Both the position numbers and the translations under genes were made by a program. A DNA stretch of 64,000 nt, taken from assembly GCF_026151205.1 (NCBI RefSeq), contig NC_087081.1, positions 9,735,113-9,799,112 on the forward strand. The letters run 5' to 3'. This DNA is from Bolinopsis microptera (Eukaryota > Ctenophora > Tentaculata > Lobata > Bolinopsidae). Position 1 is the first letter of the stretch. Each line of letters opens with the position of its first letter. Positions 8,304 to 23,040 of the stretch are shown in pieces. Below the pieces are notes generated by a model. That model was not told the origin of the DNA. It saw only the letters and a program-made list of their open reading frames with translations, and ran no database searches.

Positions 8304-11300
8304 GGACCTTTACTGATAGTTGAAATTCGACATATGACGTCATCTAGCGTCATCTAGCGTCATCTAGCGTGAAATATCGCCAGATGATGATAGATGACGC
8401 TAGATGACGCTAGATGACGCTAGATGACGCCAATTAGCGACATTGTCGCTAAGTGCACGGCACCTTTCGAATGTCGCTATCTAGCGCTATCTAGCGCTAT
8501 CTAGCGCTATCTAGCGCTATATGACGCTATATGACGCTATATGACGCTAGATGACGCTAGATGACGCTAGATGACGCTAAGCACGCAGCACTGACGCCAG
8601 GCGACAGATAGCGCTATTTTCATAAAAATTCTAGGGACGACATCTAGCGTCATCTAGCGTCATATGTTGCCGCGACATCTGACGCTATCTGACGCCATCT
8701 AGCGATATCTGACGTCATCTGACGACATCTGTCGCGACGACATCTGACGCAGGCGACATCAAGCGCTGGATAGCGGGATAAGTCAGTTTACGACAGTTCA
8801 CGCTATCTAGCGCTATATAGCGCCAGATAGCGCTATATAGCGTCAGATGTCGTTGCGACATATAGCGCTAGATAGCGTTAGATAGCGCTAAATAGCGTTA
8901 GATAGCGCTAAATAGCGAAGAATTTTGGGTCGTGACAGTCCAGGCTATTTAGCGCTAGATGTCGCTATCTAGCGCTATATGTCGCTGCGTCAGATGTCGT
9001 CGCTACATATAGCACAAGATATCATATCCTATCACAGTAACAGTAATCCTAACTCTGTGTGTGTGTGTGTGTGTGTGTGTGTGTGTGTGTGTGTGTGTGT
9101 GTGTGTGTGTGTGTGTGTGTGTGTGTGTGTGTGTGTGTGTGTGTGTGTGTGTGTGTGTGTGTGTGTGTGTGTGTGTGTGTGTGTGTGTGTGTGTGTGTGT
9201 GTGTGTGTGTGTGTGTGTGTGTGTGTGTGTGTGTGTGTGTGTGTGTGTGTGTGTGTGTGTGTGTGTGTGTGTGTGTGTGTGTGTTGTGTGTGTGTGTGTG
9301 TGTGTGTGTGTGTGTGTGTGTGTGTGTGTGTGTGTGTGTGTGTGTGTGTGTGTGTGTGTGTGTGTGTGTGTGTGTGTGTGTGTGTGTATGTTTTACTGGG
9401 ACCGTAAGAGCAGCCTGTCTTTTCCCACCCAATCTTTTTTGTTATTTTTATTTTATATGAAAATTAATTTTTACTGTAGCTGTGTATGAAAATTAATTAT
9501 AATTAACTTTAAGTGAGAATGCAAATGATATAACTATAAGCTTGCGCGGCTCGTCGAAGTCACCCAACTATTACACTCGATTTATCAAATATTCGGCTGA
9601 GTGGAACAAAATATTAATATCACTTAATCAAGGGGTCGTTTACATATTATAATTATATAAAGGGCCTGATGCCGCCGGCCGGGTTTTCCAAATTATTACG
9701 CTCGCTAGTGTGATTGTGACATAATACTAATAGCTTAATAGCTATGTATGGAACTGATTACTAACAATGAGGGGTCGTTCACATACCCCGTAATCAGTTT
9801 TACCATAGCTATTATATTTATGTCAATATTACACTAGCGTAATCAATAATCATTTGAAAACCCCAACCTCCTCAGCTGATTACGTAATACTAATATGTAA
9901 ACGACCGTCGACCCTTAACATTTCGGGATCGGAAGAAAGCGGCACGTACTATTTCGACGAAATTTATACAAGTTACTAACATCGTTGATTCATGATGCCA
10001 ATCTTTCACAGCTCAGTGGTGCATTTCGCCGAAAAGCATTATTGGATACCGAGAAGCATTTTTGGATGCGCGGCGCGACACACTCACAGTAACGCATCGC
10101 GTTGATTCACGATGTCAATCCTTCACTGTTCATGTTCACAGCTCGGCGAGGCCCAGTCATGGTGCATATCGCCAATTTAGTAACATAGTTGGTCAGTTCG
10201 TACAAAAGTCGTAAAAAATTCGTACAGTTCGTTTTTTCAGTTCGGGATTTGGATTAGTTTGGGAAAAATTCGCTTCATAAATTTTCGAAATATATAATAA
10301 AAAGCTAATTGCAAAAATTTGTGTTAAAATGGCGGGAAACGATGACGTGCGGATGCATGTTAATATTTTAAATCTGAAATGTAACCTCCCGGACAAAAAT
10401 AACAAATTTTTTGGACTGAAGTGATTACTGATTAAAAAACAAATTTTTTTTAAAAATTCGGTAAAAATTCCTCGACAGCTTTTTAAAATTTGTACAGTTC
10501 GACACCTTTTAAGAGTTCGTACATATCGTACATACAGTAACGTACTGACCAAGTATGTTTAGTAAAGCACTAGTGGTTGCAAGAAGCATTATATTATTGG
10601 CTGCGCGGCGCGGCCCAGTAGTGCATCGCGCTACAACAAACATCGTCAAATAGATTACTCGAAGCTCAAAGCTGTAAAGTATTTATCCAAAATAATTCCG
10701 ATCCCGAGGATTGTTACTGGGCCGCGCTCAGCCTGTCATTCCGCCAAATCTTTATTCGCCAAATCTTTATTCGCCAAATCTTAATGTTTATGAACATGTA
10801 CATATTAGCCTGGGTCCCCAGGTAAGAGGATTGACATAACTTATAAATTTATAATATATTAATTCTAAATACTGAATGCATCGCATTTTAAGGGTTTTGG
10901 TATTTTCGTAGCTAAATTGCACTAAAGCTTTCGCGCTTGCACTTCACACTTGCGCGTAGTTCGTAAACTGAAAACTCGTGGGTACGATATATGTGATTAC
11001 TGAACAATAAATTCGGCTCGACTCTCATTACATTCTTTTAATAACTTGCTGTGCGAGATTTCAATACTATACTATTAATTTGCAAATGCTAATTTAACAT
11101 TTAGATCTTTACATCATCTTCTTTCACATAGCCATGTGTCTAAGCGTACTACTAGCGAGAGGGCTATGGTTAGAGCATAAACAGGTTATACTGGACGAAT
11201 CTCACTCGTTAACGGGTGATACTCGTAATTTACTATCACGCGCCGCTTTTTCTCAAAATATTAGTCTAAGCCTATACCAGCCGGCAAAGTTTTTATATGT

Positions 11301-12291
11301 AATCTACATACAACGTTAAAATTAAGTTGAGTTTTGAACGTTGCTTATAGTTGATAAGGTAACCTTGATCTAACGTAAAATAATAAACGTTTTGCAACGT
11401 TAAAAATAAAACTTATAACCAACGTCAGATATTTAACGTTTAACAACGTTTTATATGTAACCTACATACAACTTTAAAATGTAGTTGAATTTTAAACTCT
11501 GCTTATAGTTAATAAGGTAACCTTGATCTGACGTCAAATAATAAACGTTTTGCAACGTTAAAAATAAAACTTATAACCAACGTTAGATATTTAACGTTTA
11601 ACAACTATAGCCATAGCTATAGCTGTCGCCGCGATATCTAGCGCTAGATAGCGCTATCTAGCGCTATCTAGCGTTAACTGTCACAAACCGATATTCTCCG
11701 CTAGATAGCGCTATCTAGCGCTAACAAGCGTTATCTAGCGGAGAATGTCGGTTTGTGACAGTTTACGCTAGATAGCGCTATCTAGCGCTAGCTGTCGCCG
11801 CGATATCTAGCGCTAGATAGCGCTATCTAGCGTAAACTGTCACAAACCGACATTGTCCGCTAGATAGCGCCAGATAGCGCTAGATAGCGCTAGATAGCGC
11901 TGCGTCAGATGTCGTTGCGACATATAGCGTTAGATAGCGCTAGATACCGCTAGATGTCGCAAAAAAAAGGGCGGAAATTTTATGAAAATAGCGCTATCTG
12001 TCGCCTGGCGTCAGTGCTGCGTGCTTAGCGTCATCTAGCGTCATCTAGCGTCATCTAGCGTCATATAGCGTCATATAGCGTCATATAGCGCTAGATAGCG
12101 CTAGATAGCGCTAGATAGCGACATTCGAAAGGTGCCGTGCACTTAGCGACAATGTCGCTAATTGGCGTCATCTAGCGTCATCTAGCGTCATCTAGCGTCA
12201 TCTATCATCATCTGGCGATATTTCACGCTAGATGACGCTAGATGACGCTAGATGACGTCATATGTCGAATTTCAACTATCAGTAAAGGTCC
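8304..12291 (+). mobile_element. Giant foldback element FB2, copy 1 (3988 bp)
   Basis: Flanked by the exact 8-bp duplication GAATTAAC (8296-8303, 12292-12299). Termini are inverted: GGACCTTTACTGATAGTTG on the left, its complement ending GGTCC on the right. Both arms then consist of hundreds of bases of ~10-bp units (TAGATGACGC, TAGATAGCGC, TATATGACGC and variants), with short shared spacers such as the one around CTAAGTGCACGGCACC. Inside lie (TG)n at 9056-9387, about 2 kb of mostly unique AT-rich DNA, and a ~170-bp tandem duplication at about 11300-11610. The largest internal frame (minus, 10193-10552) resembles no transposase. A second copy in opposite orientation lies at 18926-22733. Non-autonomous by appearance; the 8-bp duplication fits hAT, while long repetitive arms recall some Mutator-type foldback elements. 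Confidence 0.85.
9056..9387. repeat. (TG)n microsatellite inside FB2 copy 1
   Basis: About 330 bases of near-perfect TG dinucleotide, with one slip (GTTG) near 9284. It sits where FB2 copy 2 has (CA)n at 21873-22009. The Cys-Val and Thr-His open frames here are artefacts of the repeat. Confidence 0.97.
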
Positions 12292-12299
12292 GAATTAAC

Positions 12300-21667: not shown

Positions 21668-21872
21668 GTTCCACTCAGCCGAATATTTGATAAATCGAGT
21701 GTAATAGTTGGGTGACTTCGACGAGCCGCGCAAGCTTATAGTTATATTATTTGCATTCTCACTTAAATTATAATTAATTTTCATACACAGTAAAAATTAA
21801 TTTTCATATAAAATAAAAATAACAAAAAAGATTGGGTGGGAAAAGACAGGCTGCGCTTACGGTCCCAGTAAA

Positions 21873-22009
21873 ACACACACACACACACACACACACACAC
21901 ACACACACACACACACACACACACACACACACACACACACACACACACACACACACACACACACACACACACACACACACACACACACACACACACACAC
22001 ACACACACA
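21873..22009. repeat. (CA)n microsatellite inside FB2 copy 2
   Basis: About 137 bases of CA, the complement of the (TG)n in copy 1 and less than half its length. Confidence 0.97.
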
Positions 22010-23040
22010 GAGAGTTAGGATTACTGTTACTGTGATAGGATATGATATCTTGTGCTATATGTAGCGACGACATCTGACGCAGCGACATATAGCGCTAGAT
22101 AGCGACATCTAGCGCTAAATAGCCTGGACTGTCACGACCCAAAATTCTTCGCTATTTAGCGCTATCTAACGCTATTTAGCGCTATCTAACGCTATCTAGC
22201 GCTATATGTCGCAACGACATCTGACGCTATATAGCGCTATCTGGCGCTATATAGCGCCAGATAGCGTGAACTGTCGTAAACTGACTTATCCCGCTATCCA
22301 GCGCTTGATGTCGCCTGCGTCAGATGTCGTCGCGACAGATGTCGTCAGATGACGTCAGATATCGCTAGATGGCGTCAGATAGCGTCAGATGTCGCGGCAA
22401 CATATGACGCTAGATGACGCTAGATGTCGTCCCTAGAATTTTTATGAAAATAGCGCTATCTGTCGCCTGGCGTCAGTGCTGCGTGCTTAGCGTCATCTAG
22501 CGTCATCTAGCGTCATCTAGCGTCATATAGCGTCATATAGCGTCATATAGCGCTAGATAGCGCTAGATAGCGACATTCGAAAGGTGCCGTGCACTTAGCG
22601 ACAATGTCGCTAATTGGCGTCATCTAGCGTCATCTAGCGTCATCTATCATCATCTGGCGATATTTCACGCTAGATGACGCTAGATGACGCTAGATGACGT
22701 CATATGTCGAATTTCAACTATCAGTAAAGGTCCGGCATATCCTGTCCAAACCCAGGATACATGACATAAAAGATTCGTTTTCACTTGTTTGCATGAAAAG
22801 CATTAATAGGTTATAACGTACAAGGTTCCCGACTCGTGCAAGAACAGTTTTTAGTTTTTACAAGCTCTGTCGCAAATTTGTCTGAGATTTTAGCCGTCTC
22901 AACTTTCAGATAGTATAAATATTTATCCGTATGGATTACATTATGGATCGTTATTATTTTTGAATGCAATTAACTTTGTATCTGTTACAAGTGCGAAAGA
23001 TAAAGAGTTGCAGTAAAGTCGTAATCACCAACAGCTAACT

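Follow-up and report, generated by a model that had tools for sequence, protein, structure and literature searches.

Structure of the two elements

The analyzed window, a 64,000-nucleotide stretch of a contig of the ctenophore Bolinopsis microptera, contains two related elements, W1 and W2, whose parts and coordinates are summarized in Table 1. A sequence-only reading had described them as two opposed copies with GGACC termini, 8-bp duplications, decamer arms, and a (TG)n tract, all of which were confirmed in the sequence.

Table 1. Parts of W1 and W2 and their positions in the window
Feature	Position	Length	Strand	Description
Target duplication left of W1	8296-8303	8 bp		GAATTAAC
W1, whole element	8304-12291	3,988 bp		GGACC...GGTCC ends
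W1 left arm	8304-9015		+	GGACC terminus and decamer array (TAGATGACGC and TAGATAGCGC types), period 10
W1 (TG)n tract	9056-9386		+	single interruption at 9284
W1 core	9400-11300		+	no transposase recognized
Palindrome in W1 core	9634-9906			imperfect (65% self-match, other strand); possibly a nested miniature element
W1 right arm	11606-12291		-	decamer array, GGTCC end
Target duplication right of W1	12292-12299	8 bp		GAATTAAC
Target duplication left of W2	18918-18925	8 bp		GGCATATC
W2, whole element	18926-22733	3,808 bp		orientation opposed to W1
W2 arm	18926-19500		+	GGACC end and decamer array; inner edge approximate
W2 core	19500-21873		-	W1 core inverted; extra segments near 20666-20800 and 21557-21667
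W2 (CA)n tract	21874-22009		-
W2 arm	22060-22733		-	decamer array, GGTCC end
Target duplication right of W2	22734-22741	8 bp		GGCATATC

The outer arms of W1 are complementary at 99% over 267 bp. Their self-match at a lag of 10 is 0.58-0.59, compared with 0.27 for the core and 0.29 for a flank, and the lag-10 signals of the W1 left arm and the W2 right arm were each reached by none of 200 shuffles. The arms also contain internal palindromes, with part of an arm matching its own inverse at 86%. W1 and W2 have the organization that characterizes foldback elements, namely long inverted repeats of short tandem subrepeats around a variable or non-coding middle. A link between the decamers and a ctenophore chromatin-loop motif (PMC12221973) was considered and set aside, because no motif letters were found there for comparison.

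Alignment of the two elements showed 99.3% identity over 3,502 ungapped columns with 25 gaps, and a BLAST comparison of W2 with the W1 core returned three pieces of 94-97% identity. Because the target duplications, flanks, and indels all differ, a single assembly duplication is ruled out. Inversion of the segment between the two copies, which had also been proposed, is possible in principle, but the duplications flanking each copy still match each other, and this speaks against a retained exchange or inversion between the copies.

In the interior of W1 and W2, the longest stop-to-stop frame spans 121 aa when (TG)n-derived frames are set aside, and the three frames tested gave no Pfam hit with an E of 0.01 or less. 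The frame scan and the Pfam search led us to reject a coding core in either element, in agreement with the initial description of both as lacking a recognizable transposase.

The GGACC family across the genome

The 26-nt terminus was found at 274 places in the genome with up to three mismatches (135+139), against none for a reversed-pattern control, and all of the 100 listed termini among these read GGACC. A search with the W1 core yielded 128 matching pieces from the 40 scored of 3043 candidates. Exact 8-bp duplications are present at 27 of the 33 two-ended copies read, where the chance of one such match is about 2e-5 per copy; the family therefore transposes. Abundant genomic copies with 8-bp duplications had been named by the sequence-only reading as supporting evidence, together with a coding relative; no coding relative sharing the GGACC ends was found among the copies read or close to the 100 listed termini (of 274). 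Recent spread of the family shows in copies on C1, C9, and C5, which share 99.8% identity; exact duplications flank two of the three copies, and these duplications are different. Insertions appear to favor A/T-rich targets, with a symmetrised preference of G/A-A-A-W-W-T-T-C/T.

The duplication length had initially hinted at hAT elements, which make 8-bp duplications of the consensus nTnnnnAn and have CAGNG-type termini. A single one of 27 duplications fits this consensus, and the ends start with GG (GGACC) rather than with the CAGNG type, which makes a hAT-derived foldback extremely improbable.

We also considered that the arms might stem mainly from recombination or replication, through hairpin-driven inverted amplification of a satellite, and might not be ends recognized by a transposase. 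The internal arm palindromes are in line with such an origin, as are two cases (L034 and L036) in which ends abut head-to-head with a 5-bp spacer. However, 11 of the 33 extracted copies are core-less and consist of arms only (226-1267 bp), and 8 of these 11 carry exact 8-bp duplications, as do most copies overall, which points to transpositional insertion. Moreover, similarity between the two arms of an element (median 0.990) is only slightly above that between elements (0.975), and 5 of 22 left arms, like 5 of 22 right arms, have their own mate as best match. Homogenization of arms within an element was accordingly judged weak, and the amplification origin is very improbable.

Longer frames in 26 family loci were inspected by eye, three of them also being run against Pfam, and no transposase was recognized. 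In L017, a 998-aa frame has endonuclease and reverse transcriptase, and a 358-aa frame gives a GIY-YIG match that falls short of the Pfam cut-off; L020 contains a 495-aa reverse transcriptase frame. These large frames are best read as nested retroelements and were rejected as the mover. Genome-wide, the first 16 or 26 terminus bases followed by a non-consensus letter occur at no place, while the positive control, in which the consensus letter was allowed, gave 77+78 places. A separate family with GGCAAG ends is rarer and larger, and has additional outer arms that flank GGACC arms.

Merlin transposons in the same genome

The genome contains 58 matches to the Merlin transposase domain (DDE_Tnp_IS1595, PF12762), many of them in open frames of 295-337 aa. 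Ends were looked at in 15 of the 58 loci, and both ends were read in 7 copies. All five coding families with ends read start with GG, and five of the seven copies have exact 8-bp duplications, with unequal flanks at the other two (L075 and L074+L078). Four of the five families have short-unit arrays of period 11 or 15 near their ends that none of 200 shuffles reach, as does the array of a sixth family, L072, which is represented by its array only; the stretches of L074 and L072 used in this comparison were picked after their arrays had been noticed. The array of L068 is not significant (reached by 16 of 200 shuffles). In three of the coding families the arms are about 300-400 bp long, and the Merlin arrays read share no evident common unit sequence with the decamers.

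A probable Merlin transposase acting in trans

Merlin elements are described as having terminal 5'-GG and duplications of 8 or 9 bp (PMC8101967), and the GGACC family has both, in all of its listed termini and in the exact 8-bp duplications of most two-ended copies. We consider it likely that W1 and W2 are non-autonomous foldback transposons of the cut-and-paste type and that the enzyme moving them is a Merlin transposase (IS1016/IS1595-type DDE) supplied in trans. Several results weigh against this reading: among the 58 Merlin matches, the one closest to a listed terminus (100 of 274) is still 19.2 kb away, the decamer is unlike the units of the Merlin arrays read, two of the seven coding copies have unequal flanks, and the L068 array is not significant.

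An alternative mover would be a MULE transposase acting in trans on a Mutator-superfamily foldback of the nematode Tm1 kind. Mutator duplications are mostly 9 bp and range from 8 to 11 bp, so that 8 bp falls inside. The genome holds 88 MULE transposase matches, but the nearest is 15.8 kb from the listed termini (87 of the 88 matches and 100 of the 274 termini compared). Mutator is the superfamily to which most foldbacks described so far have been assigned (PMC4079207). Tm1 is reported to have composite tandem-repeat arms and mostly 9-bp duplications (PMC3169594), whereas here 26 of 31 measured copies have exactly 8 bp and exact matches of 9 to 12 bp occur in none of the 31. Taken together, a Mutator origin is unlikely.

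Returning to Merlin, the earlier proposal that the decamers are multiplied transposase-binding sites gains indirect support, because coding Merlin families of this genome have end arrays and, by analogy, because the arm repeats of Galileo are reported to hold several binding sites for the THAP domain of its transposase (PMC3688188). We infer that the decamers serve as multiplied binding sites for Merlin transposase. The transposase would recognize the GG terminus, and several molecules per arm would be bound along the helically phased decamers. Pairing of both arms and excision would follow, and then insertion at an A/T-rich target with an 8-bp stagger.

It is conceivable, though somewhat doubtful, that array-type ends are general to the Merlin transposons of this ctenophore, and that foldbacks are their extreme form, able to capture transposases. 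Each family would then have its own unit, spanning roughly one helical turn (10-11 bp) or one and a half turns (15 bp), many transposase molecules might assemble on the array, and the unit sequence could act as family identity. New outer arms, such as GGCAAG outside GGACC, might lead to capture of the transposase of another family.

Foldbacks have been known for decades; in the open-licence literature searched, transposase binding to arm repeats was found for Galileo only (PMC3688188), and a search linking foldbacks to Merlin turned up a single work, a plant review. Here a large foldback family without coding capacity shares a genome with several coding Merlin families, each of which has a unit of its own, and this provides a natural test of whether arm repeats are co-evolving transposase-binding arrays. 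If Merlin moves the GGACC elements, foldback architecture would have a further independent origin besides Mutator and P, and duplication length and shape would not suffice to place a foldback in Mutator safely. In addition, the analysis documents an element family with recent activity in an animal lineage that branched early.

Comparison with known systems

W1 and W2 resemble the Merlin superfamily (IS1016/IS1595 relatives) in their GG termini and 8-bp duplications. In the account of PMC8101967, Merlin inverted repeats range from 24 to 462 bp, some families have internal tandem repeats, and Merlin sequences occur in three ctenophores; the word "foldback" is absent from its main text. A further likeness lies in the short-unit arrays near the ends of the coding relatives in this genome. 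Unlike Merlin elements, W1 and W2 lack a transposase, take the foldback form, and have arms that consist of a 10-bp unit and measure about 700 bp.

The sea urchin TU elements, likened here by description only, make 8-bp duplications, and their outer arm consists of 15-bp repeats. The P element itself also makes 8-bp duplications. Galileo of Drosophila, a member of the P superfamily, similarly has foldback arms with tandem repeats (PMC3688188) and has been tied to inversions, but differs in its 7-bp duplications and P-type transposase (PMC3573991) and in its unrelated ends. The 8-bp length found here departs from the Galileo value and speaks to Galileo only.

Finally, Tm1, other Mutator-assigned foldbacks, and Tetris are described as sharing composite inverted repeats built from tandem units and transposase-less copies (PMC3169594, PMC4079207). 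They differ from W1 and W2 in their duplications, which are mostly 9 bp in Tm1 and 8-10 bp in Tetris according to these reports, in their assignment to Mutator, and in their hosts and sequences.

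GGACC foldback elements in the window

W1 and W2, the two opposed foldback elements of the window, contain everything that the sequence-only reading had described, namely GGACC...GGTCC termini, opposed orientation, exact flanking 8-bp duplications, decamer arms and a (TG)n tract, which adjoins one arm in each. In line with that reading, no transposase and no other coding capacity was recognisable in W1 or W2. The W1 arms are 99% complementary across their outer 267 bp and have a period of 10, with a lag-10 self-match of 0.58-0.59 (reached by 0/200 shuffles), against core and flank values of 0.27 and 0.29. 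The two elements align with 99.3% identity in ungapped columns, with 25 gaps and unlike flanks, which rules out one assembly duplication and identifies two separate insertions. CpG observed/expected is 1.66 in the W1 arms (8304-9015, 11606-12291), 1.47 in the core (9410-11300) and 0.84 in a flank, in a window of 39.0% GC; the arm and core values would be unusual if the copies had long been methylated.

The opposed orientation had also suggested that the intervening DNA could be inverted. An odd number of inversions of the 12.3-18.9 kb segment through W1/W2 exchange would have swapped the flanking 8-mers; because W1 and W2 both keep matched pairs, no such inversion is retained in this haplotype.

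Copies across the genome

Searching the whole genome (264,652,675 bases, 232 contigs) with the 26-nt terminus at <=3 mismatches gave 135 forward and 139 reverse places, and 0 for a reversed-pattern control; the terminus is exact at every one of the 100 places listed of these 274. A core search returned 128 matching pieces from 40 scored of 3,043 candidates, and the outer 176 bp are identical in the best 40 of 249 candidates, which are top-ranked by design. The 40 regions fetched around listed terminus places contain 33 copies with both GGACC ends, the extended family described below being left out. Exact 8-bp duplications flank 27 of these 33 (26/31 in one measured set, plus L026/L027 with and L036 without one). 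The core is absent from 11 of 33 extracted copies; this set of 33 takes in two extended-family copies, L020 and L022, and omits L026/L027 and L036. The coreless copies measure 226-1267 bp, and 8/11 have exact duplications.

Copies L030 (C1), L031 (C9) and L032 (C5) share 99.8% identity over aligned columns. L030 and L031 have exact duplications that differ from each other, and L032 has no matching pair. Near-identity on three contigs, with differing duplications at two of them, shows recent transposition: the elements insert with an 8-bp duplication and have spread recently. In L034 and L036, element ends stand head-to-head across a 5-bp spacer (GGATT and CCATT), possibly left behind when transposition aborted or a hairpin was repaired. 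Retroelement-like frames of the window and retroelement frames of foldback copies are included in the table.

Positions and characteristics of foldback elements, coding Merlin families and retroelement frames
Feature	Position or loci	Ends or units	Duplication, flanks or content
W1	window 8304-12291, opposite to W2	GGACC...GGTCC	GAATTAAC
W2	window 18926-22733, opposite to W1	GGACC...GGTCC	GGCATATC
Copy without exact duplication	L043		flanks agree at 7/8 bases
Copy without exact duplication	L032		flanks agree at 5/8 bases
Copy without exact duplication	L053		flanks agree at 4/8 bases
Copy without exact duplication	L054		flanks agree at 2/8 bases
Copy without exact duplication	L034; head-to-head ends 1098-1116		0/8 bases agree, yet GGATT directly at either side
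Copy without exact duplication	L036; head-to-head ends 5011-5029		CCATT common to both flanks, then next element
Extended-family copy	L020 with L059, L060; C3:10320410-10327214	GGCAAG ends	678-bp outer arms, GGACC arms inside
Merlin family, 320 aa	L062-L066, L076	GGCAGTYTACAAG; 15-bp palindromic units	L064 GGAATCAG; L066 CAATGTAG; L076 GAATATCC
Merlin family	L068	GGCAGTATCGAG; 15-bp palindromic units	GAGCACAG
Merlin family, 337 aa	L067, L069-L071; example array L067:766-1165	GGTAACTCGG; 11-bp units	L067+L077 ACTTAATT
Merlin family, 328 aa	L075; example array 971-1330	GGTCAAAGACC; 11-bp units	
Merlin family, 318 aa	L074+L078; example array L074:1204-1555	GGCAACTTGTACG; 11-bp units	
Sixth Merlin family	L072, L073	CCGGTTAGTAG-type 11-bp units	known from its units
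Retroelement-like frame	window 46323-48446		708 aa, reverse transcriptase
Retroelement-like frame	window 49409-52036		876 aa, no Pfam match
Retroelement-like frame	window 51843-52448		202-aa GIY-YIG, overlapping the 876-aa frame
Frame within foldback copy	L017:4222-7218		998 aa, endonuclease and reverse transcriptase
Piece within foldback copy	L017:1356-2432		Penelope-like GIY-YIG, below Pfam cut-off
Frame within foldback copy	L020:2780-4267		495 aa, reverse transcriptase

A larger, rarer extended family carries additional outer arms. In L018/L019, L020 and L022 the same sequence flanks the GGACC arms on both sides in mirror order, and L046 has it on the single side that was read. L020, the sole copy with both outer ends read, has the outer end GGCAAGTTTCCATAAAG, an exact 8-bp duplication CTAGATCC and an outer arm of AGCGATTATA-type units with a lag-10 self-match of 0.38 (reached by 0/200 shuffles); L022 is missing its right outer end. 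The extended terminus occurs at 10 and 9 places in the genome (control 0). AGCG-anchored units are common to outer and inner arms, and the family probably arose by arm accretion that made a new terminus. The longest copy of this family contains exactly 2,500 N within a decamer-array region (L019:3176-5675), which may be an assembly gap or else withheld sequence.

Transposase superfamily

The 27 exact duplications are A/T-rich, with the symmetrised preference G/A-A-A-W-W-T-T-C/T. The target-duplication consensus of hAT elements is nTnnnnAn, which fits 1/27 and thus disfavours the hAT mover that the sequence-only reading had raised. GG ends and 8- or 9-bp duplications are marks of Merlin, the IS1016/IS1595-type DDE superfamily, whose remnants or genes are reported in three ctenophores (PMC8101967); the GGACC elements, with GG ends and 8-bp duplications, fit that description.

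Pfam matched the Merlin transposase domain 58 times in the genome, and many of these matches fall in open frames of 295-337 aa. Ends were inspected at 15 of the 58 loci and were readable in five families, all of which start with GG. Both ends were read in seven copies, five of them with exact 8-bp duplications, which are absent from L075 and L074+L078. Unexpectedly, these coding families have array-type ends: the 337-, 328- and 318-aa families have arms of ~300-400 bp with 11-bp units at both ends, of the types GCACACCTCGG, ACCGCTTAAGA and TAAGACAACAT. The array signal was reached by 0/200 shuffles in four of the five end-read families and likewise in L072, and by 16/200, short of significance, in L068; two control stretches gave 105/200 and 36/200. 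Since the array had already been noticed when the L074 and L072 stretches were chosen, for them the test gauges strength only. The L062, L070, L074 and L075 frames have CxxC-type cysteine pairs in their N-terminal part, where Pfam listed no zinc-ribbon at E <= 1, a listing from which weak matches may be filtered.

The window elements thus share their kind of array end with coding Merlin families, but their unit is 10 bp rather than 11 or 15 and differs in sequence, and no unit common to GGACC decamers and Merlin arrays was found among the arrays read. The likeness is one of design and does not imply homology. The coding relative for which the sequence-only reading had proposed a search did not emerge: no transposase was recognised in any GGACC-ended copy read, and from the 100 listed of 274 termini, W1 and W2, the closest Merlin match lies 19.2 kb and the closest of 87 Mutator matches compared 15.8 kb away. 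The first 16 terminus bases followed by a differing 17th letter, or the first 26 by a differing 27th, occur at 0 places in the genome; a like pattern with the consensus letter allowed, as positive control, gave 77+78. Mutator transposases have 88 matches in the same genome, and the majority of foldbacks are assigned to Mutator (PMC4079207); we regard a Mutator transposase as an improbable mover of these elements, and consider a Merlin transposase the likely one.

Proposed mechanism and comparison with known systems

Foldbacks, Merlin and tandem repeats within some Merlins (the last in PMC8101967) are already known; a literature search of limited coverage found no earlier report of foldbacks of Merlin type whose arms are helically phased arrays. 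In the proposed mechanism, a Merlin transposase made elsewhere and acting in trans would recognise the GG ends, bind the phased units along each arm and pair both arms before moving the element. Galileo, in which several transposase-binding sites lie within foldback arms (PMC3688188), is a precedent for such binding. The unmatched flanks of L032, L053 and L054 may mark these copies as products of exchange, an origin that has been proposed for chimeric copies of Galileo (PMC3573991).
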